Shown piece by piece: positions 4,289 to 35,066 of a DNA stretch of 42,957 nt (position 1 is the stretch's first letter; each line of letters opens with the position of its first letter). The notes beneath the pieces were generated by a model. The model saw only the letters and a program-made list of their open reading frames with translations, made no database searches and was not told the DNA's origin. This stretch comes from a virus, in IMG/VR virus record IMGVR_UViG_3300021420_000068, positions 1-42,957 of that record, one strand, 5' to 3'. The translations under genes and the position numbers were made by a program.

Positions 4289-4490
4289 ACGACCGATAAG
4301 CGGTCACCAGATACAGGCGATCCAGAAGCAGATGCTGGCCGAGTTCCAGAGGGCGCTCGACGACGTGGAGTTGAGGAAGATCGCCTTGCAGCACGCGTGC
4401 GCCGCGCGTGACGTGTCCGATCCGGTCAGCCTCGCGCGGGAAATGCACGCGTTCCTGTCGGAAGGGGCGGCTGCGGTGCTGGCGAAATAG
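4266..4490 (+). CDS. Small helical protein, last gene of the early operon (74 aa)
   Basis: The 74-residue product is a single long amphipathic helical stretch (QAIQKQMLAEFQRAL onward) with an Ala-rich end. No family is recognised. ATG at 4266 overlaps the previous gene by 23 nt; ATG at 4257 is possible. Its 3' end overlaps the 3' end of the convergent winged-helix gene by 65 bp, so the two operons meet head to head with no intergenic terminator. Confidence 0.5.
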   Translation: MTTTDQSERPISGHQIQAIQKQMLAEFQRALDDVELRKIALQHACAARDVSDPVSLAREMHAFLSEGAAAVLAK

Positions 4491-4803
4491 CTTGCAGCAC
4501 CCAGCGCGGGTTCCATTTCTGGTCCGACACGATTTCCAGGCCGAAGGAAGCCAGGGCGGCTTTCATGAGGGTGCGCTGCACGTTGAGCGCAGTGGGGCTG
4601 CACGAGGTGCGGTGAGAATAAACAATTTCGGCCAACTCGGCGCGCCTGAGCCCAGCCTGCCCCGCACGGTCTAGCGTTTCAAAAATCCGCAGCTGCATCA
4701 TGGTCAGCCTGGTCTCGACGCCAAGCGGTGGCACCGGCCTCCCGCAGCATGGGCAAACCTTCGGCTTGGTAGGATCAGGCCAATTGCCGTGCCGTTTGTT
4801 CAT
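4426..4803 (-). CDS. Zinc-knuckle plus winged-helix DNA-binding protein (125 aa)
   Basis: An N-terminal CPCCGRP motif (about residues 18-24) is followed by a winged-helix region (about 34-110: a helix MMQLRIFETLDRAG, then RRAELAEIVYSH, then a TALNVQRTLMKAAL recognition helix and a WVLQ strand). This arrangement is familiar in small alphaproteobacterial phage proteins. It probably binds DNA as a regulator or replication accessory. The Pro-rich tail overlaps the convergent gene at 4426-4490 and may be dispensable. ATG at 4803 overlaps the stop of the DUF1376 gene (ATGA). Confidence 0.6.
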   Translation of the reverse strand: MNKRHGNWPDPTKPKVCPCCGRPVPPLGVETRLTMMQLRIFETLDRAGQAGLRRAELAEIVYSHRTSCSPTALNVQRTLMKAALASFGLEIVSDQKWNPRWVLQAISPAPQPPLPTGTRAFPARG

Positions 4804-5365: not shown

Positions 5366-5770
5366 CTACTTCCGCGCCTCGTTGTAGACCCGCATCGCGC
5401 ACCCCTTGGCGTTCTGGTAAATCTCTGAGCCGGTGAACCGGAACAGTTTGATCCCCGCGCGCCGGATCATGATGTCGCGGCGGCGGTCGCGCGCCACGTC
5501 CTCGGGCTTGGTGTGGAACTCGTTGCCGTCGCATTCGATGAACACCGGCGCCGACTTGTGCGGCACAGCCAGGGCCCAATCGATCCGGTAGCGGCGCCAC
5601 TTGAATTGCGGATAAAGAAACCATTCATCATCCATCAGCTCAAGCATGGCCAAACCAAACATCACCTCAATTGGCGACTCAGTAAATTTGGCCATCCGGG
5701 CGGCGGCCTCGACTTTCTCACGGAAAAAATGGCCCTCGCCAACGAAGGTATCTTCTTCCATCTCGATCAC
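5366..5770 (-). CDS. PD-(D/E)XK nuclease, DUF559/Vsr-like (134 aa)
   Basis: The order of motifs fits the single-domain PD-(D/E)XK fold: Glu35 in SPIE, Asp64 in RIDWAL, then FIECDGNEFH with Glu79 and Asp81, and a basic stretch ARDRRRD followed by LFRFTGSEIY. This resembles the Vsr and DUF559 nucleases. A nick or cut in DNA is the expected activity; the target is unknown. It lies in the leftward regulatory/replication operon. GTG at 5770 overlaps the preceding stop as GTGA; ATG at 5761 is an alternative. Confidence 0.75.
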   Translation of the reverse strand: MIEMEEDTFVGEGHFFREKVEAAARMAKFTESPIEVMFGLAMLELMDDEWFLYPQFKWRRYRIDWALAVPHKSAPVFIECDGNEFHTKPEDVARDRRRDIMIRRAGIKLFRFTGSEIYQNAKGCAMRVYNEARK

Positions 5771-6581: not shown

Positions 6582-6827
6582 TCATCGCCTCCATGTCCGC
6601 CACGGGAGGGGCTGGCTATCGTTCAGGCCAAGGGGCGGCCATTTCAGAAACAGCGGGATATCCTCGATCGCCTCCATGAACTTCTCTTCGTCGAGCACGA
6701 ACCGGGCCAGCACCTCACCGCGCCCACGGGCTGTTTGTTGACGCGGTGAGGCCTGACCAACCGCCGGGAACCGGGAGGGAAGGCCGGCGGGAGCTGGCAT
6801 GAACGGGTTGGGAAGTTTTGATGTCAT
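6582..6827 (-). CDS. Small hypothetical protein (81 aa)
   Basis: The N-terminal half is Pro/Arg-rich and probably unstructured; the C-terminal half has an acidic helix (LDEEKFMEAIEDI) and ends Trp-rich. No family is recognised. ATG at 6827 overlaps the stop of the Cro-like gene (ATGA), and its own stop overlaps the start region of the GcrA-like gene. Its place between two regulators suggests a regulatory role, but nothing in the sequence shows one. Confidence 0.5.
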   Translation of the reverse strand: MTSKLPNPFMPAPAGLPSRFPAVGQASPRQQTARGRGEVLARFVLDEEKFMEAIEDIPLFLKWPPLGLNDSQPLPWRTWRR

Positions 6828-22237: not shown

Positions 22238-22501
22238 TCATCCCCTCCGAAAATACAGCAGCGTCTGCGGGATCACGAATACCACACTAAAGGCGATTGC
22301 GGCATAGAGACGGTCCCGCGATGGGTCATAGATGGTCCAGAGCCAGATTGCCGAGCCGGTGAGCACTGCGATCAGCAGGAGCACGCGAGTAGCGCAGATT
22401 TCGGCCACGGCACGGGCCATTTCGATGTATGTCGGCGTGACATCCTCGTCTTTTTGCGGGCCGGGCTGCGTTGCGGTGAACAATGGGGTTGGATCGGTCA
22501 T
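22238..22501 (-). CDS. Two-span membrane protein, possible second holin (87 aa)
   Basis: Two membrane segments are visible at about residues 40-57 (VLLLIAVLTGSAIWLW) and 65-83 (LYAAIAFSVVFVIPQTLLY), separated by a short polar loop (DPSRDR). Length and topology fit a small holin, but the main holin candidate is at 12399. AGGA is located 7 nt upstream of ATG. It may be an antiholin or a membrane factor for ejection. Confidence 0.5.
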   Translation of the reverse strand: MTDPTPLFTATQPGPQKDEDVTPTYIEMARAVAEICATRVLLLIAVLTGSAIWLWTIYDPSRDRLYAAIAFSVVFVIPQTLLYFRRG

Positions 22502-22502
22502 T

Positions 22503-22841
22503 TTAAATCCTGATGTATGCTAATCCAGCGATGGTTTTTATTGTTGGAATGCAATTCTCAGCCTCCATCACCACCAGATTGACAGTACCCTCCTTGACAA
22601 AGGCATCGGGAAAAATCTTGGTGCGATCTACCTCCAAATATCTTCGATCCTTGCCTAAACGGCGAGGGCCGCAGATGTTGTCGCCGCATCTTTCCTCATA
22701 GGGATAGTCTTGGGCGAACAACGTCCAAGTCCCGAAGCCCATGAAGCCAATCGGGACTTCCTTTCCACCAATGATTGAAAGCATATTTTCCCGAGTAGGC
22801 TTCTGACCTTCCGTCAGAACTCCATCACCAAAGTCGCTCAT
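22503..22841 (-). CDS. Miniature capsid-like protein, paralogue of the major capsid protein (112 aa)
   Basis: This short protein contains FMGFGTWTLFAQD (residues 33-45), which matches IMGFGTWTLLAQD at 215-227 of the capsid protein (33502-34512). Next, ERCGD/ERYN and a KEGTVNLV/PEGTLYLV block follow at almost the same spacing. Its N-terminus MSDFGDGV also resembles MPQFGSGV of the capsid. Together it looks like a capsid protein with about 185 residues removed from the middle. DNA codon usage at the shared motif differs and the area is less GC-rich, so the divergence is old or the gene came from another phage. ATG 22841 overlaps the preceding stop. Role unknown. Confidence 0.65.
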   Translation of the reverse strand: MSDFGDGVLTEGQKPTRENMLSIIGGKEVPIGFMGFGTWTLFAQDYPYEERCGDNICGPRRLGKDRRYLEVDRTKIFPDAFVKEGTVNLVVMEAENCIPTIKTIAGLAYIRI

Positions 22842-23020
22842 TTGTCAAAAAATCCTGTTTTGTCGTCGCCCCCGTTGATCTTGTAGCGGATAGCTAGAAG
22901 TTTGACGCCGTGGCCGATCGCCGAGAGCTTGTCCTGCTTGTTTTTCGACCGCAGCAGCTTGCGCACGGCATCTTCCATGGTTTTCAGGAAGTCATCGTCC
23001 TTGCCGTTCATCTCGGTCAT
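22838..23020 (-). CDS. Small basic helical protein (60 aa)
   Basis: The 60-residue product is charged and helical (EDAVRKLLRSKNKQDKLS) with a short C-terminal GGDDKTGFF. No membrane segment. ATG at 23020 overlaps the stop of the large ejection-type protein gene (ATGA), and its stop overlaps the capsid-like start. The upstream frame to 23500 belongs to a shadow of the large gene. No family is recognised; possible virion or morphogenesis accessory. Confidence 0.5.
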   Translation of the reverse strand: MTEMNGKDDDFLKTMEDAVRKLLRSKNKQDKLSAIGHGVKLLAIRYKINGGDDKTGFFDK

Positions 23021-24672
23021 GGGCCGCCGCCCTCTGCGAGTGGCGATGTCAGGGCGGAGCGCAATGCCGGCGCCGGAAGCGCGGCCGGAAGATTGGGCGC
23101 GACCTGATTTCCGAAATACATCTGAGCTAGTGGTGACATGATGGCGCGGCCGGCCAGAGTTGGCATCGCGGCCCCTGCAGCGGCGCCCACTCCTGCCCCT
23201 GTGCCTCCGCTCGCCGCACCACCTAATGCAGCGCCAGCACTGGACGTGATGAAACGCGCCAACTCGCGCTGTCCGGTGCCGGAGTTTGGCAGAGGCGTTA
23301 GCAGAATGTTGCCGGCTCGCGTTAGTTCGGCAAAATCCCCCTGCCCGCGGGAATACTCGCGCTGACCGCGCTGCGTGGAGGCGATCACCGAACGCAATTT
23401 CACTGGCGTAATGGTGCCCTCGGCTGCGGCTTCTCCAGCACCAGCGGCGGCCCGCGAAATCGGGATCAGGTTGCGATACTGTCGCCGTGCCTGCTGCCAA
23501 GCCTGCAAATCCTGCGGGTTGGTGATCGACCGAGCCATCATATCGTCCATCGCCTCGACATAACTGCCGAGCACTTGGCTATATTCCGGGTCGTTGCCGG
23601 CACCGCGCTGCAGCCGGGTCAGTCTCGAACGGAATCTCTGGTACTGATCGCCGGTCAGGACAGGTGATTGCGTCAGGCGGTTGAAAAAATCCCGTATCGT
23701 GTCATCCACCACCCCGCGTCGACTGCCTTGCTGGACCGTGGCGTGGTATTCGTCGCGTGCGGTTATGAGGTCGTTTAGAAATTGAGTGTCCTGCCGTCCG
23801 TTGTTGCGAGCGGCAATTGCGTCCATCTCGCCGCCGATCCTGTTAAACGCGCCATCGATCACGTCCGGTGTGGCGCGGTCGGCCACAATTCCGGCGCGCG
23901 TCAGCACCGCCGCTGTAAACTGCCGATTGACGGTTTCCATAGCCTCGGTGGCGCGTCCTCCGGCACCTGGTGCGTCGCCTAGATGGCTTTCGGCATACTG
24001 CAACGACTTGCTTCCGGTGCGCTGGCCGGCGGTAGCGGCGGTGATACCCTCGTTTGCCAAGGTCTGGGCCGCGGCGATGCGTTCCGCGGTAGCCGGAATT
24101 GGCGTGACGGCGCGGGCGGCGGCTGCGGGTGCCTTGCCTCCAACGATCGAGCCTGCGATGCGGGCCGGAGTTTCGAACTTGCTGCCTGCAGTTAGTTGTC
24201 CCGCCGCCTCGCCGCCGAGTGCAGATGCCGTCCCGGTAACTACTTTAGCTGGCAAACTGCCAGGACCGATATAACTTGCTGGATTTCCTAGCACTTCACC
24301 GACCGCAGCGCCAAATTTGCCCGCGGTGCCTTCCGGTTTGTGCATTTCTCCAGTGACGTTTTTCTCAATGATGCCGGTCGATTCGGTGGTACCAGGGATT
24401 TGCGACGGGTCTTGCCCCATCTCGATCGCCGCCGCCTTGCCGCCAGAACTCGCCGCAGACATGAATCCCTCTACCGCACCGCGCGGGATCGACTTGAAGA
24501 AATCGCCGATCCCGGAGGACTGCGCCGCGGCGGGTGGCGGTTCGGGCGTCGCGGCGGCTCCTGAAATCAGGTTTCGTTTCTTGGCTTCGTCATACAGCGC
24601 CTTCTTGTCCCCCGTCAGCAATCCGCGACGGTCGGCTTCGGCCAGTAATGCGGCGCGGTTTTCATCCATCAC
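23017..24672 (-). CDS. Large ejection/internal virion-type protein (551 aa)
   Basis: The protein is long and Ala/Gly-rich. It has an N-terminal short repeat-like motif (LLAEADRRGLLTGDKKALYDEA...) of the kind seen in peptidase or phage internal proteins. A central Gly/Ala region with weak hydrophobic stretches is followed by charged helices (DDTIRDFFNRLTQ, QYQRFRSRLTRLQRG) and a C-terminal Gly/Ala-rich hydrophobic part (AGAALGGAASGGTGAGVGAA). This architecture is that of podovirus ejection proteins that leave the head and cross the envelope. No enzymatic domain is recognised. ATG at 24669 is equally possible. Confidence 0.6.
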   Translation of the reverse strand: MMDENRAALLAEADRRGLLTGDKKALYDEAKKRNLISGAAATPEPPPAAAQSSGIGDFFKSIPRGAVEGFMSAASSGGKAAAIEMGQDPSQIPGTTESTGIIEKNVTGEMHKPEGTAGKFGAAVGEVLGNPASYIGPGSLPAKVVTGTASALGGEAAGQLTAGSKFETPARIAGSIVGGKAPAAAARAVTPIPATAERIAAAQTLANEGITAATAGQRTGSKSLQYAESHLGDAPGAGGRATEAMETVNRQFTAAVLTRAGIVADRATPDVIDGAFNRIGGEMDAIAARNNGRQDTQFLNDLITARDEYHATVQQGSRRGVVDDTIRDFFNRLTQSPVLTGDQYQRFRSRLTRLQRGAGNDPEYSQVLGSYVEAMDDMMARSITNPQDLQAWQQARRQYRNLIPISRAAAGAGEAAAEGTITPVKLRSVIASTQRGQREYSRGQGDFAELTRAGNILLTPLPNSGTGQRELARFITSSAGAALGGAASGGTGAGVGAAAGAAMPTLAGRAIMSPLAQMYFGNQVAPNLPAALPAPALRSALTSPLAEGGGP

Positions 24673-27315: not shown

Positions 27316-27666
27316 CTATATGATGCCTAGAGCCTGCCTGATGACGGCGTGTACCGTCGCATGATAGCCCGTCCAGTTATAGAAGTCATTTTCGTCGTCG
27401 AGGTTGACCTGTGAGAGGTCAATCGAGGTGATGCCGAGCGCGGCGTGGATCAGGTTGTGTTGCGCCGCGTGCGACTGCACCATCGACGGGTTGGCGGTTC
27501 CAGCGGTCAGGAACGACAGCAAATCCGGGTCCGGCAGCACGATCGGCGGCACTTGCTGCGACAGCACCTGGACAAACTGCAGATGTTCGCGGCCGTGGCC
27601 CATGTCCCAGGCGCCATAGCCGGGCAAATCCTTGAACGTCACCTGATCCGGCTGGAACTGCGGCAT
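27316..27666 (-). CDS. Hypothetical late protein (116 aa)
   Basis: A folded-looking acidic protein with His and aromatic residues (GAWDMGHGREHLQFVQVL, QSHAAQHNLIHAALG, WTGYHATVHAVIRQALG). The regular His-x3-His helices suggest a compact helical or metal-binding protein, but no known motif is satisfied. ATG overlaps the stop of the large tail protein (TAATG). Possibly a tail-completion or adaptor protein by position. Confidence 0.5.
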   Translation of the reverse strand: MPQFQPDQVTFKDLPGYGAWDMGHGREHLQFVQVLSQQVPPIVLPDPDLLSFLTAGTANPSMVQSHAAQHNLIHAALGITSIDLSQVNLDDENDFYNWTGYHATVHAVIRQALGII

Positions 27667-29855
27667 TACTTGTTGCCCACGTTTGTTTCTTGATACTCGA
27701 TCGTCAGGTTAGTCATCGTGAAGTTGGCGAGCGTCCCGGTCACCGTCGCGCCGAGATAGCGACCGCTGCCGTCCTCCGTCGCCGTCAGGGCCTGGAAGCC
27801 GGTCGGCACCGCCGTCTTGTACAGATTGGTGCCCTCGTTGGTATCCATCGACAGGCTGATCTGGACGTTCGCCACCGCGGTAGCCGCAAATCCGCCGCGC
27901 AGCGTCTTCTTGCGCTGCACTGCATTGCCGTGATGGGTCAGCGCGGTCTGCAGCTTGAATGCCACCGGCTGTGCCGCGTTGGCGAGGATTTGCGTGATGT
28001 CCTGCCCGGATGAGGCAAAGGTCAGCGTGCGGCCAGAGGCCAGCGTCGAGGCGGTGGCGACCGCCGTCAGTCCCGTGCCCTGGTTGATGACGAACCATTT
28101 CTTGCCGGTGAAGGCCAACAGGATCGAGCGCTCGTTAGCCAGCGGGTCTTTGTAGCGCACCAGCCAGGCGATGTGATGGATGTTGTTGATGTCGGCGATG
28201 CAGGCCTGCGGCTCCTGCGTGAAGTCGATCAGCTTGAAGATGCCGTCGAGATCGTCGGATATCTTCTGCACGCTAGAGCCGAACACCGCATAGACGCCGT
28301 TGGTGTTGGCAAAGAAGAACACCCGGTTGAACGAGCCGCAGCTATTGGTGTAGATCGTGCCCTGGTCTGATGAGAGCGTCAGGATGGTGAACAGCGTGAT
28401 ATGGCCGGTGGCGTCGAGCGAGATGTTGCCGATCTGCTTGATCGACTGGTCGCCCATGATGAACAGGTAGTTGTTGTAGTTGCGCAGCGCCGTGATGGAA
28501 TGCGTCAAATCCGCGTCGGTGATGATCAGGCTGCCGCTAGCGTTGGTGGCGGAAAAATCGTCGAAGCCTGCCGTTCCGGTATACTGCAGCAACCTGAGCA
28601 GCCCGCCGGGGATCGGGCCATTGAGCCACACTCTGCCGCCAAACACCGCGATCGTGGTGCCCTTTGGCACGAACGGCCAGACATGGGCGTTGGCGGCCGC
28701 TCCCGTACCGCCACCACCGGAAAAGCCTACGGTCAGCACGTCGCTCGCCAGATAGCCGGCGCCGTCGTTGGTCAAGGTGACCGAGGTAACGCCAGAGCCG
28801 CCGACCACCGCTGCCGCTGTCGCTCCTACACCCGCGCCGCCGCCTGTAAACGAGACATTGGGCGCACTGGTATAGCCCGAGCCGCCAGATGTCACCGTGA
28901 TCGACAGCACACGCCCGTTGCCGACGGTGCAGGTGGCGACAGGCGGGAAGCCGCCGGTGCCGAACGAACCACCGGAAAACACCACGGCGGGCGCGCTGGT
29001 GTAGCCTGACCCGGCCGTCACGATCGAGATGCCGGTCACCACGAAGAACCCGAAGCCATTGACGGAAAACGTGGCTTGCGCCGTGGCACCAGAGCCGCCG
29101 CCGCCAGAGAATGAAGTCACCACCGGCGTCGGCAGATTGATGTCGCGGTAAGCGCCCGGGTTGGTGACGGTGACGGTGTTGACGCCGCGCGGGTCGATGT
29201 TAGCGGTTGCCGCCGCGCCGATGCCACCACCACCGGCGAACACAACGCCCGGTGCCGGACCATATCCCGAGCCGCCATTGATGACGTTGACGGCGACCAC
29301 GGCCGGCGTGCCGATGGTGGCAACTGCAGTAGCGCCGGTGCCGGAGCCGCCGGTGATGGTAACGGTCGGCGGCGAGGTGTAGTTGGCGCCCGGCGCGGTC
29401 AGGTTGATCACCGGCGACACCCCGCCCTGCTGTACGAATGCGGTGCCGTCCCAGGTCGAATAGCCGGCGGTCGGGTCGTTGATCAGGATACGCTGCGAAT
29501 TCCACACCGTCATGTCGGGATTGGAGAAGGTGCCGGGCGAGGCGAACCGCGCCGAGATGCCGGTCGCGATATTGGTGGCCCAGCCGGCGCCGTTGGTGGT
29601 GAACGAGATGATGTAATCGATGGGACCGATATTGGCGTAGTATTGCAGATTGATGGTGTCGGCGATGTTGGAGATCGCCGTATTCGGTCCCGGCACCGTC
29701 ACTAGGTTATTGGGCGCGATCGGCTGCAGGTTCTCCAGCCATGCCAGTTCCTTCTCGTTCAGCGCCTGGCGCACGCTCTGGGTGTTCATCTTCTCGAACT
29801 GCTCGAAAACGATGAACTTGCTTTCAGCGCGCTGCATCTCTCCGGGATGCGGCAT
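27666..29855 (-). CDS. Tail nozzle/hub-like protein with six GSGY repeats (729 aa)
   Basis: Residues about 1-145 and 400-729 form a beta-rich framework (TAISNIADTINLQYY, YNNYLFIMGDQSIKQIG, GSFNRVFFFANTNGVYAVFG, ERSILLAFTGKKWFVIN) that resembles the propeller-like nozzle proteins of short-tailed phages (P22 gp10 or T7 gp12 analogues). Residues about 149-392 are an insertion of six copies of a motif like GGSGYTSAPxVxFxGGGGxGATA. The same motif is found in two other proteins of this phage. GAGG lies 6 nt before ATG. Nozzle assignment is inferred from size, order and fold style. Confidence 0.62.
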   Translation of the reverse strand: MPHPGEMQRAESKFIVFEQFEKMNTQSVRQALNEKELAWLENLQPIAPNNLVTVPGPNTAISNIADTINLQYYANIGPIDYIISFTTNGAGWATNIATGISARFASPGTFSNPDMTVWNSQRILINDPTAGYSTWDGTAFVQQGGVSPVINLTAPGANYTSPPTVTITGGSGTGATAVATIGTPAVVAVNVINGGSGYGPAPGVVFAGGGGIGAAATANIDPRGVNTVTVTNPGAYRDINLPTPVVTSFSGGGGSGATAQATFSVNGFGFFVVTGISIVTAGSGYTSAPAVVFSGGSFGTGGFPPVATCTVGNGRVLSITVTSGGSGYTSAPNVSFTGGGAGVGATAAAVVGGSGVTSVTLTNDGAGYLASDVLTVGFSGGGGTGAAANAHVWPFVPKGTTIAVFGGRVWLNGPIPGGLLRLLQYTGTAGFDDFSATNASGSLIITDADLTHSITALRNYNNYLFIMGDQSIKQIGNISLDATGHITLFTILTLSSDQGTIYTNSCGSFNRVFFFANTNGVYAVFGSSVQKISDDLDGIFKLIDFTQEPQACIADINNIHHIAWLVRYKDPLANERSILLAFTGKKWFVINQGTGLTAVATASTLASGRTLTFASSGQDITQILANAAQPVAFKLQTALTHHGNAVQRKKTLRGGFAATAVANVQISLSMDTNEGTNLYKTAVPTGFQALTATEDGSGRYLGATVTGTLANFTMTNLTIEYQETNVGNK

Positions 29856-29858
29856 GGC

Positions 29859-30833
29859 TCACCTCGACACGCGGCGCTGGTAGTTTTTATTATAGATGTT
29901 CGGGATGCGAACTCCGCCGGTGCCGATGATGATCCGCGGCACCCGGTTCTCGTATTTCTTCAGCATGTAGTCGGACTGCTGGAAGTTCTGCAGCTTGAGC
30001 AGGCACAGATGCGCGGCGTAATACTGCACGGCGTCGGCATACTGCGGCGCGATCTGGGTCTCGGCGTCGCCCGGATTGAGCAGCGGGATCGGCAGGCAGA
30101 TCACGTCCCATTCGGTGACATAGGACTGATCGGGCGGCGGCTGGATTTGCACATAGCCCATCTGCTGGTTGATGGTCCACACCATGCCGCGCTGGGTGAA
30201 AAATTGCTGGCTGCGCATGTAGGCCTGGAACAGCATCGAGCCGCGCCACAACAGGGTATAGCGCTGGTCGCCCCACAGATAGGAAATCTGGATCACGTTC
30301 ATGACGTTGTTGAACAGGGTGGCAATCGCGGTTGCCCCTGTGCCACCGCCGGTGTCTGCGATGGTCACCGTTGGCGGCTGCGTTGCCGAGGGCGAGGTCG
30401 ATGGCAGTGCCGGCTTGTAGCCGGTGCCCCACACCAGCATGTTGATGCCGGTGACGACGCCGCCTGTGATGACGGGGATGCCGGTTGCCTGCACCGAACC
30501 GGACGGGCCAGGGCCGAAGGTGACCGTGGTGGAGGGTGAATAGCCGCTGCCGCCAGTGACGATGTTGGCGCCGACCACCACACCATTGAGACCGTTGGCG
30601 CCCACTAAAGGATATAGTTCCTGGTTCGGGATTACCGAGACCGGGTTATAGGCGCTGTTGTTCGGCGCGTTGTTTGGCGCCGACAGGTAGGTCTGGCGCA
30701 CGCACTGGAAATCCTCGCCCACCACGGTGCGGGCGTTGTTGATGGCGGCGGTCAGCTCAGACTGGGTAAAATCAGCGTTGGTCTGGTCGTGGACCAGAAA
30801 CTGCACTTGCGTGATGTAATCGGATAGCAGCAT
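29859..30833 (-). CDS. Head-tail adaptor-like protein with inserted GSGY repeats (324 aa)
   Basis: The N-terminus (QVQFLVHDQTNADFTQSELT and AINNAR) and C-terminus (APQYADAVQYYAAHLCLLKL) are typical of podovirus head-tail adaptors, which are helical proteins that sit below the portal. Residues about 85-175 hold two GSGY-type repeats (VTGGSGYSPSTTVTFG and a second with GTGYKP). The order adaptor then nozzle matches short-tailed phages. Start ATG at 30833. Confidence 0.65.
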   Translation of the reverse strand: MLLSDYITQVQFLVHDQTNADFTQSELTAAINNARTVVGEDFQCVRQTYLSAPNNAPNNSAYNPVSVIPNQELYPLVGANGLNGVVVGANIVTGGSGYSPSTTVTFGPGPSGSVQATGIPVITGGVVTGINMLVWGTGYKPALPSTSPSATQPPTVTIADTGGGTGATAIATLFNNVMNVIQISYLWGDQRYTLLWRGSMLFQAYMRSQQFFTQRGMVWTINQQMGYVQIQPPPDQSYVTEWDVICLPIPLLNPGDAETQIAPQYADAVQYYAAHLCLLKLQNFQQSDYMLKKYENRVPRIIIGTGGVRIPNIYNKNYQRRVSR

Positions 30834-32158: not shown

Positions 32159-32581
32159 TCAGGCTCCTAACATCGCAGTCGATTGACGGCGGAAACCGTT
32201 ACGGTTTCCGAGCATACCGGCGGACAGCTTAGCCTTATGTTCATCAGTCAGCTTGCGGCCAAGCCATGGGTGTTTCTGGCCTCTGACATTTTCTCCAACC
32301 GTCATGATCGAAACATTCCCGACAGCGTAGGCACCGCAATCGCCATTCCGCGCCATACAGTATTGGTGTTTCAACCGGCCCCGCTCATGGAGATGGCCGG
32401 ACTCTTCCCACAGTTTCAACCACTCTTCAAACGTCAGCAGAAACTCAATGCCACGCCTTTTGGCTCGCGCCTTTTGCCAATGCCAGCTTTGCTTCAAGTA
32501 GATCATTCTATGATCTTCAGACGATCTGATCCTCGCCATGTATTTGGCTTGGTACTCGGCGTGGTATGATCTCTCTTTCAT
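32159..32581 (-). CDS. Free-standing homing-type endonuclease with NUMOD3-like tail (140 aa)
   Basis: A basic N-terminal half (HWQKARAKRRGIEFLLTFEEW) with HERGRLKHQYCMARNGDCGAY, then a NUMOD3-like DNA-contact motif (GRKLTDEHKAKLSAGM, GNRNGF). This is a usual plan for phage homing endonucleases that sit between structural genes. The gene is AT-richer than both neighbours and separates two virion genes, a sign of an independent insertion. ATG 32581 is chosen; TTG 32593 is possible. Catalytic residues cannot be fixed by eye. Confidence 0.7.
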   Translation of the reverse strand: MKERSYHAEYQAKYMARIRSSEDHRMIYLKQSWHWQKARAKRRGIEFLLTFEEWLKLWEESGHLHERGRLKHQYCMARNGDCGAYAVGNVSIMTVGENVRGQKHPWLGRKLTDEHKAKLSAGMLGNRNGFRRQSTAMLGA

Positions 32582-32597
32582 CAGTCTTTTCAACTAG

Positions 32598-33491
32598 TTA
32601 TTGAACACGCGGCTGGAATGCAGCGGTGGCGTTGGCAGCGGCGGTGACCGCCGACATGGTGACGGTGGCGGCGCCGACACCGGTGATGGTCCCGGTCGGG
32701 GTGCCGGTATAGCCCGAGCCGTTGTTGACGATGACGACGCCGGTGACGGTGGCCGAGCCGGTCAGGGCGGTCGGGGTCAACTGCACGCCGACGGCGCTGG
32801 TATTCTGGTTGCCCGGAACGGCGTTGGTCGGGAACACCAGGCCCGGCGGCGGATAGGCCGCGGCGGCGAAGGTGCCACCACCCGACGGCCCGCCGGTGTA
32901 GTAGGCCGGCTGCGGGATCACGTACCAGTTCGGCGACACCGGATAGCCGGCGCCGACATTGACCATGGTGACCGAGGCGATGGTGCCGGTGGCCGAAAGC
33001 GCAGCAACGGCCGTGGCCTGGATGCCGCCGGTCGGTGGCGGGTCGCAGCACAGTAGCGGCGGCACCAGGAAGCCACTTCCTGCCTGGGTAATGGTTGGAG
33101 CGGCAACCGAGCCGCCGACGATGACGTAGCCGGTAGCCTGCACGCCGCCCGTGGTGTTGGAGGCGATGATCGACAGCACGCCGGACCCGGCGGTGCCGAT
33201 GCCGTTGGTACCGGTGGTGCCGGCCGCGAACGATGCGACCTGGACGATGCCGGTGGTGTTCAAGAGGCGGATGTTGGTGCCGTCCGACGAGATGAAGTCG
33301 CTCGCGCTGGCGATGGTCTGCCAGGCGGTGGAGATCGGGTTCCACCATTGCAACGCCATGTTGGCCGGCACGTTGCACAGCCATTCGCCCGAGGGCAGAT
33401 ACCAGGTACCGCCGGTGCCGAGCGTGATCTGCACCATGCCTTCCGAGGGCTGGGCGGTCGGATAAGGAAAATTGCCGCGGACTTGTGCCAT
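32598..33491 (-). CDS. Structural protein with GSGY-type repeats (297 aa)
   Basis: The first 100 residues form a beta domain (TLGTGGTWYLPSGEW, NMALQWWNP). Afterwards come three repeats with AGSGF, GAGYPVSP and GSGYTGTP cores and Ala/Thr strands, like those in the 27666 and 29859 products. It is placed right behind the capsid gene, where decoration or head-fibre genes often lie. No signal peptide. Confidence 0.55.
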   Translation of the reverse strand: MAQVRGNFPYPTAQPSEGMVQITLGTGGTWYLPSGEWLCNVPANMALQWWNPISTAWQTIASASDFISSDGTNIRLLNTTGIVQVASFAAGTTGTNGIGTAGSGVLSIIASNTTGGVQATGYVIVGGSVAAPTITQAGSGFLVPPLLCCDPPPTGGIQATAVAALSATGTIASVTMVNVGAGYPVSPNWYVIPQPAYYTGGPSGGGTFAAAAYPPPGLVFPTNAVPGNQNTSAVGVQLTPTALTGSATVTGVVIVNNGSGYTGTPTGTITGVGAATVTMSAVTAAANATAAFQPRVQ

Positions 33492-33501
33492 GTGTGCGCC
33501 T

Positions 33502-34512
33502 TTAGATGTTCAGGAACGCGAGACCGTCGAACTTGCCGTGCGCCTTGCACTTCACGTCGACCAGTTCGAGAAGCGACAGGATGGCGCCGATATACCCCAA
33601 CTGGTTGTTCGGCAGCGTCGACTCGAAGCCGGTGAAGGAGAACGCGGCGCGCTCATGCAGGAACAGACTGAGGTAGTTGTTGTTGACGAGGTACAGCGTC
33701 CCCTCCGGGCAATACGGGTCGGCGTAGAACGGCACGCCGGCGACATCCAGTGCACGGAACAGCGACTGCACCTTGGTGTCGGCGCCGAACGCGCTGGACG
33801 GTGTGATGTTGTAGCGTTCCTGGCTGGTGAAATCCTGCGCCAGCAGGGTCCAGGTGCCGAAACCCATGATGCCCAAGGTCGGCATCTCGCCCGTGGTCTT
33901 AGAGACCTGGGCGATATACTGCAGCATCAGGTTGCGGGTCGGGGTGGTGGTGCCGGTGCCGTGGACGTAGGTGGATTTCCAGAAGGCGTTCGTCGTGCGA
34001 GAGACGCCGCCATACGTCGCTGAGAACGTACCGTCGTCAATGGCCGCGGGCAGGCCAACCAATTGTTGCTGGTTAGATACATTGTTAAAGAGAGCGGTTG
34101 CAAAGGTATCAATGGTGACGTTGGTACTATCATTCATCCTCGCTTCGATCAGGGGGACGACCGAGTAATCCAGTTGCACCAGGCCTTCCATCCCGAGGAA
34201 CGGGATCGTGGTGACGAAGGCCTTCAAATTGAACTCGGCGTTCTGGATGCCGGGCTGCACGCCGGGCTGCTGGAACGAACCGGAGTAGTCGACCCACTGG
34301 CCCGACACCATCGGCGCGCCCTGCAAGGGAGCCGTGATCGGCGACAGACCGCCGGTCGCCACCTGCGCCGAGGACAACAGCGCAGCGATCAGCGGCGCGG
34401 ATTTCCACAGTTGGACGTAGACCCTGGGCATGTAGGCGCGCCGTACAACCGAGGATAGTTCTGATGCTATGGCACCACTTGCGGGGATCACGCCACTGCC
34501 GAATTGGGGCAT
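33502..34512 (-). CDS. Major capsid protein (336 aa)
   Basis: The position (portal, scaffold-like protein, then this gene), the length (336 aa) and the mixed alpha/beta make-up all fit an HK97-fold major capsid protein. The N-arm (residues 1-50) is helical and the core has MGFGTWTLLAQD and the LYLVNNNYLSLFLHE strand. AAAGGA is upstream of ATG 34512. A short paralogue is found at 22503-22841. The capsid assignment is contextual; the fold was not tested. Confidence 0.8.
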   Translation of the reverse strand: MPQFGSGVIPASGAIASELSSVVRRAYMPRVYVQLWKSAPLIAALLSSAQVATGGLSPITAPLQGAPMVSGQWVDYSGSFQQPGVQPGIQNAEFNLKAFVTTIPFLGMEGLVQLDYSVVPLIEARMNDSTNVTIDTFATALFNNVSNQQQLVGLPAAIDDGTFSATYGGVSRTTNAFWKSTYVHGTGTTTPTRNLMLQYIAQVSKTTGEMPTLGIMGFGTWTLLAQDFTSQERYNITPSSAFGADTKVQSLFRALDVAGVPFYADPYCPEGTLYLVNNNYLSLFLHERAAFSFTGFESTLPNNQLGYIGAILSLLELVDVKCKAHGKFDGLAFLNI

Positions 34513-34532: not shown

Positions 34533-35066
34533 TTAGCGTTTCTTCCGCATGAATTCGCCGATCACCTGATGCGCAGTATCGCGCGCCGCCTTGGTCGGAT
34601 CGGGTCCGAACTTGGCGAATTCAGGCATTTCCCAGGTGGCGCCGTGCTGCGGCGGCTCATTGTCCAGATTTGGCTCGTGAGGCGGCAGCGTCGCGGCGTA
34701 CAGCGTGGCGCCGTCCTCGTAGTCGCTGATGCCCTTCTTCTGCATCAACGCCTCGATCTTTGTGACATCATCCTCGGAGTATTTCCGTCCCGACGAATCG
34801 CCATTGAGAAGCCGGGTGCGCTTGGCGTTCATCTGCGCCAGCATTTCGTCCTGCTGGCGTTTGACCGCCGCCTCTTCCTGCTCGCGCTTGAAGGCTTCGA
34901 ACCTGTCCTCGACGTCGACATCGGCGAACGCGGCGGCGTGTTTACTGTCCGGCGCGATTTCCCGAATCGCCTTGGCAATGGTTTTGCGGGTCTTCTTGTC
35001 GTGCGCCAGCTTCAGGAACAATTCCCTGAGTTCGTCGGTGGGCGGCGCCTGGTGGGTGTCGGTCAC
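34533..35066 (-). CDS. Scaffolding-like protein (177 aa)
   Basis: A very charged, helical, soluble protein (DRFEAFKREQEEAAVKRQQDEM) with a C-terminal basic end (GEFMRKKR). It comes just before the capsid gene, as scaffolds usually do. Basic C-termini of scaffolds bind the coat. There is no protease motif. GTG 35066 directly follows the preceding TAG stop. Role inferred by position and composition. Confidence 0.65.
   Translation of the reverse strand: MTDTHQAPPTDELRELFLKLAHDKKTRKTIAKAIREIAPDSKHAAAFADVDVEDRFEAFKREQEEAAVKRQQDEMLAQMNAKRTRLLNGDSSGRKYSEDDVTKIEALMQKKGISDYEDGATLYAATLPPHEPNLDNEPPQHGATWEMPEFAKFGPDPTKAARDTAHQVIGEFMRKKR

Follow-up and report, generated by a model that had tools for sequence, protein, structure and literature searches.

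A small late-operon gene of a phage encodes a putative stand-alone A-domain of its HK97-fold capsid protein

The mini-MCP locus and its variable slot

The window is a stretch of 42,957 nucleotides of viral DNA (IMG/VR record IMGVR_UViG_3300021420_000068, positions 1 to 42,957). It contains a full-length major capsid protein (MCP) gene and, elsewhere in the late operon, a small gene related to it, here called mini-MCP. The features of the window that are discussed below are:

22238..22501, minus strand: TM87, 87 aa, downstream of mini-MCP, with hydrophobic stretches
22496..22860, minus strand: inserted stretch with look-alike ends, delimited by direct reading
22503..22841, minus strand: mini-MCP gene, 112 aa, putative stand-alone A-domain of an HK97-fold MCP
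22838..23020, minus strand: g60, 60 aa, upstream of mini-MCP and conserved in relatives; its stop overlaps the mini-MCP start as ATGA
33502..34512, minus strand: full-length MCP, 336 aa, homologue of mini-MCP
34533..35066, minus strand: scaffold-like gene, 177 aa, just upstream of MCP

The mini-MCP gene (339 bp) starts with an ATG at 22841 and has its coding part at 22506-22841 and its stop at 22503-22505. An earlier note on this DNA placed it late, behind the ejection proteins and coupled to them by ATGA; the late-operon position holds and the ATGA is present, but the coupling partner is g60, which lies between mini-MCP and the ejection-type gene 23017-24672. The label of the scaffold-like gene is a provisional one, suggested by its position and its helical, charged sequence. 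Two genes downstream of MCP, the gene at 32159-32593 (minus strand) has low GC3, a NUMOD3 motif and a match to phrog_16521, and is likely endonuclease-like and a relative of mobile nucleases.

The junction between g60 and TM87 varies among related contigs. In L086, which has no insertion, an ATGA links the two genes, and most near relatives have no more than about 50 bp between them; the gap is 340 bp in the window, 479 bp in L085, 167 bp in L094 and about 100-230 bp in more distant relatives, with a longer TM87 N-terminus accounting for part of it in L108. The ends of the inserted stretch read CAGGATTT...AAATGAGCGA at the mini-MCP start and CAGGATTT..AAAATGACCGA at the TM87 start, and follow the pattern CAGGATTT...ATGA(G/C)CGA, so that both neighbouring genes keep their start signals. 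The slot is empty in most close relatives, and in L094 it holds a 56-aa ORF that falls in no known family. L085 (contig of L003) is the closest relative, with an MCP that is 99% identical and no mini-MCP; its slot holds an HNH_3 endonuclease (Pfam 1.3e-13, phrog_1872 2.8e-32). Because this phage and most close relatives do without the gene, the comparison indicates that mini-MCP is sporadic, dispensable cargo and not a needed shell part, and it resembles a mobile accessory gene.

Homology to the major capsid protein and domain content

The window MCP is a phrog_9953 'major head protein' (E=5.5e-28), and its profile matches a solved HK97-fold MCP, 7f38 of cyanophage A-1(L) (E=7.7e-6). The reading of mini-MCP as a miniature paralogue of this protein, put forward in the earlier note with a protein alignment as its check, is borne out by BLASTP, in which mini-MCP residues 15-90 correspond to MCP 191-276 (39% identity, 88 columns, E=2e-13); mini-MCP is thus homologous in sequence to the HK97-fold MCP family. 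A six-frame search across the whole record gave the MCP (E=7.9e-9) as the sole match other than mini-MCP itself, and the only matches in annotated phages are two MCPs, from the Manatee Spring records MW202825 and MW202753. The motif GFGTWTLxAQ, followed by a codon scan of IMG/VR, lies always inside an MCP, either full-length or cut by a contig end, in at least 80 loci among the matches listed; the shorter MGxGTWTxF has chance occurrences in unrelated proteins. Coincidence of motifs is ruled out by the alignment together with the family-specific scan for the long motif.

Three elements are conserved in the alignment of mini-MCP with the MCPs: PT(R/K)...M...I, the MGFGTWT..AQD block, and the EGT-LV strand. 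The spacing from MGFG to EGT, described previously as nearly equal, is close but not the same, with 50 residues in mini-MCP and 54 in MCP. The likeness between the N-termini MSDFGDGV and MPQFGSGV, also remarked upon before, is weak taken alone and only suggestive, with 33 of 6426 background ORF starts scoring no lower (mini-MCP's own start included). The C-terminal likeness, GLAYIRI and GLAFLNI, is the stronger of the two and appears strong in a position-weighted test, where just 12 of 6609 background C-termini score no lower; the high-scoring C-termini printed are those of MCPs and of the second mini-MCP described below.

Rather than the single gap of roughly 185 middle residues proposed earlier, the alignment has two deletions. 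Mini-MCP retains MCP 191-276 and the extreme C-terminus, and is without about MCP 9-190 and 277-325; its C-terminus, GL(A)(F/Y)(L/I).I, aligns after a jump of about 48 MCP residues. The lattice-building parts (N-arm, E-loop, spine helix and P-domain) are absent from the alignment, and mini-MCP does not qualify as an MCP in its own right. The A-domain (axial domain) of solved HK97-fold MCPs is made up of a long segment after the first P-domain segment and a terminal piece after the second (GP4 gp2, PMC9698820; P74-26, PMC6775164). From this order of parts and from predicted secondary structure, the pieces left in mini-MCP are assigned to the A-domain, and the sequence supports the view that the two deletions strip the N-arm, the E-loop and both P-domain segments.

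The predicted structure of mini-MCP is compact (pLDDT 79, pTM 0.72), and a self-contained fold is predicted with fair confidence; the model of the window MCP has a pLDDT of 43. About half of the 50 best PDB matches of mini-MCP are HK97-fold capsid proteins, none of them individually significant (no E<0.001), and a viral structure library likewise gave no single significant match. Compared with the HK97-fold MCP of the group (phrog_9953 type, as in MW202825 and MW202753, and more distantly Mx8 and Mx9), mini-MCP has a homologous A-domain block and C-terminal strand but only one third of the length. Sequence comparison thereby supports an origin of mini-MCP in an HK97-fold MCP of this group through loss of the N-arm, E-loop, spine helix and P-domain strands.

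A second mini-MCP, selection and partial gene copies

A search for the pair in related phages, as the earlier note had proposed, located a second mini-MCP alongside the MCP in contig L025 (IMGVR_UViG_3300045120_000375), where the MCP match continued beyond the MCP stop:

L025:6628-6933: second mini-MCP, 101 aa, directly behind the L025 MCP (stop at 6622)

The two mini-MCPs have the same two deletions and count exactly 28 residues from the EGT/DGI glycine to the stop, and match each other at 31% identity (BLASTP, E=6e-13). Six derived residues are common to both against every MCP compared (permutation p=0.009), and the two group at 85/86 in a tree of the common columns, in which long branches make the grouping uncertain. 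Their operon positions differ. Between MCP and the gene that follows it lie 324 bp in L025 only, and 10-78 bp in all other related IMG/VR contigs with both genes. Together these data support a rare family of single-gene insertions at late-operon gene junctions, with two members found, one contig each. Three genes upstream of its MCP, L025 carries an HNH_3 endonuclease gene (L025:4391-4843, Pfam 1.5e-11); like the HNH gene in the L085 slot, it is of the phrog_1872 type.

Patterns made from either copy or both gave no further members, and 50, then 40 whole records (partly the same records) contained no second mini-MCP copy elsewhere. The gene was also absent from the annotated phages, from a prokaryote genome collection searched with one pattern, and from 300 Acidobacteriaceae genomes, and mini-MCP matches no family in Pfam or PHROGs. 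That the gene is common in the phage group is ruled out by its absence from the other whole records searched.

The base composition of the two copies is nearly the same, with GC at codon positions 1, 2 and 3 of 0.51, 0.41 and 0.54 in the window and 0.51, 0.41 and 0.55 in L025. GC3 is thus 0.54-0.55 for the mini-MCPs versus 0.82 and 0.90 for the corresponding MCPs, and the window value is the second lowest among the window genes examined. Over 90 codons, the copies are identical at 0.50, 0.51 and 0.34 of first, second and third positions, with 29 identical residues (32%). A neutral simulation from a common mini-MCP ancestor (4000 runs, nucleotide identity matched at 0.45) gave a mean amino-acid identity of 0.18 and a maximum of 0.32, with both frames open in 0.1% of runs. 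Because the frames stay open at a divergence where neutral drift rarely permits it, mini-MCP appears to be an old, sporadic gene under selection as a small protein, and the earlier view of an old origin rather than a fresh duplication holds up. Given a common mini-MCP ancestor, the pair has neither a broken frame nor a loss of excess amino-acid conservation, either of which would mark a pseudogene. The common ancestor is a premise that rests on the shared deletion borders and derived residues, and the argument for selection weakens if both copies were cut separately from diverged MCPs.

As a control, secondary partial ORFs were sought for eleven late genes in the loci fetched, which are a biased sample. 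The terminase, portal and most other late genes gave none in these loci. Partial copies of MCP comprise the second mini-MCP, two N-arm-like pieces (L042 and L052) and one apparently split MCP (L214), and the scaffold-like gene has N-terminal pieces in four contigs. These pieces, together with a more weakly matching N-arm-like ORF in L099, are:

L042:4350-4550 (4335-4547 in the control): MCP N-arm-like ORF (about MCP 17-52), away from MCP, E=7e-8
L052:5438-5716 (5429-5713 in the control): MCP N-arm-like ORF (about MCP 17-52), away from MCP, E=1e-6
L099:12966-13307: MCP N-arm-like ORF (about MCP 17-52), away from MCP, E=0.04
L073:8994-9245: scaffold-like N-terminal repeat (about residues 11-60), upstream of the full gene
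L075:8329-8640: scaffold-like N-terminal repeat (about residues 11-60), upstream of the full gene
L077:5970-6203: scaffold-like N-terminal repeat (about residues 11-60), upstream of the full gene
L046:9007-9390: scaffold-like N-terminal repeat (about residues 11-60), upstream of the full gene

Partial copies as general noise are ruled out, since only MCP and the scaffold-like gene gave secondary partial ORFs; their concentration in two shell-assembly genes is a pattern in a biased sample and not proof. The 149 secondary matches of the 324-aa gene represent a repeat module common to other virion proteins. A GSGY-type repeat module is common to the genes at 27666-29855, 29859-30833 and 32598-33491 (minus strand), and recurs in the matching genes of relatives. 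In L214:298-1264, MCP is encoded in two overlapping frames with a break near residue 84-89, apparently a frameshift, a sequencing error or a split gene. An HNH gene adjoins the scaffold-like pieces in L073 and L075; a further HNH gene separates the scaffold-like gene from MCP in L075 and L077.

Possible roles and comparison with known systems

The leading explanation, to which we give a probability of about 0.42, is that mini-MCP is a selected stand-alone A-domain, inserted as cargo, that interferes with capsid assembly, mainly that of competitors. It is ranked first because the A-domain makes central capsomer contacts (PMC9698820) and because accessory proteins that target assembly are known, small proteins interfering with a competitor's virion assembly being exemplified by Rcm (PMC12409344), TcaP (PMC10945586) and Tab (PMC10884400). 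The gene would have arrived in the slot occupied in the closest relative by an HNH endonuclease, and its product would be made late by coupled translation and fold independently. The A-domain surface, which lines penton and hexon centres in HK97-type capsids, would let it contact MCP subunits and, as it could not extend the lattice, it may cap or poison capsomers. The main target would be a co-infecting phage with a sensitive MCP; alternatively, mini-MCP might tune assembly of its own phage. A capsomer poison should harm its own phage too, unless its own MCP resists, and this counts against interference. A wider formulation, in which a mobile stand-alone axial domain is passed among phages and either competes at the capsomer centres of co-infectors or blinds capsid-sensing immunity, is conceivable at somewhat below even odds.

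Three other explanations were weighed. One of them, a decoy, had been raised in the earlier note, as had inhibition or tuning of assembly, and these are the leading ideas. Hosts do sense MCPs, as CapRel-SJ46 (PMC9712102) and staphylococcal Thoeris (PMC11312562) illustrate, and for this reason a sensor decoy ranks second: a free A-domain would titrate an MCP-recognising host defence without activating the sensor, thus serving as counter-defence. The sporadic, compositionally foreign gene resembles accessory counter-defence genes in this respect, but no MCP-sensing defence is known in the host, and the late operon is a late place for a shield, though the MCP trigger is itself late; we regard a decoy as unlikely. 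The low GC3, the HNH gene that the closest relative has in this slot, and the partial MCP and scaffold-like copies elsewhere in the group would suit a non-functional remnant, that is, a foreign MCP piece left by illegitimate recombination or homing-nuclease repair and open by chance. The earlier suggestion of a remnant from another phage accordingly agrees with the foreign base composition and the sporadic slot; its implication of decay does not agree with a second copy, an open frame and identity weighted to the amino-acid over the third-position level. Both deletion borders and the derived residues are common to two copies at 32% identity, a distance at which the simulated drift seldom left both frames open or gave comparable amino-acid identity, and the start, stop and coupling signals are intact, making a remnant improbable.

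Incorporation into the shell in small numbers, also raised earlier, would make mini-MCP a minor structural component of its own particle or a helper in its assembly, such as a plug or adaptor at the capsomer centre or a special vertex. Its gene lies within the virion-protein operon and its homology is to the domain lining capsomer centres, but the lattice-forming parts are missing, the two copies occupy different operon positions, and other long related records as well as the closest relative are without it. A needed structural role is the least likely of these explanations, since phages with almost the same capsid protein do without mini-MCP, and we consider it very doubtful.

Mini-MCP is akin to MCP paralogues and to capsid-targeting accessory proteins. 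Vertex paralogues of the T4 gp24 type are conserved, complete HK97-fold subunits with places in the lattice. Like them, mini-MCP accompanies the main MCP gene as a second, diverged relative (the gp24-type paralogues are reviewed in PMC9958956), but is one domain and sporadic, and at 112 aa with no P-domain it does not have the full HK97 fold found at pentamer positions. The satellite remodellers CpmB, Rcm, Sid and TcaP are small accessory proteins acting on a competitor's MCP, as is proposed by analogy for mini-MCP, but they are satellite-encoded scaffold mimics or external scaffolds, whereas mini-MCP is MCP-derived and sits in a full phage late operon. The tail assembly blocker Tab (PMC10884400) is a precedent for a phage gene that halts a competitor's virion assembly, although Tab is expressed by a prophage and acts against the tail tape-measure protein. 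Homing endonuclease genes of the free-standing kind (PMC10448857) are likewise sporadic single-gene insertions near essential genes, but mini-MCP matches no nuclease domain in either Pfam or PHROGs.

Each MCP paralogue or capsid remodeller compared here is a full subunit, a scaffold mimic or an external scaffold, and no stand-alone A-domain of an HK97-fold MCP was found in the part of the open literature covered, which is not proof of absence. If mini-MCP is indeed a selected free-standing A-domain, the HK97 fold would be divisible at a domain border into a working protein, and mini-MCP would be a small natural tool for probing what holds capsomers together, a capsid-built candidate for virus-virus competition or immune evasion, and a phage counterpart of capsid-derived restriction factors. 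The scan of prokaryote contigs returned a sole MCP relative, on the 42.6 kb Acidobacteriaceae MAG contig L243 (JANXPR010000126.1); this contig, which could itself be phage, may give a weak hint to the host.
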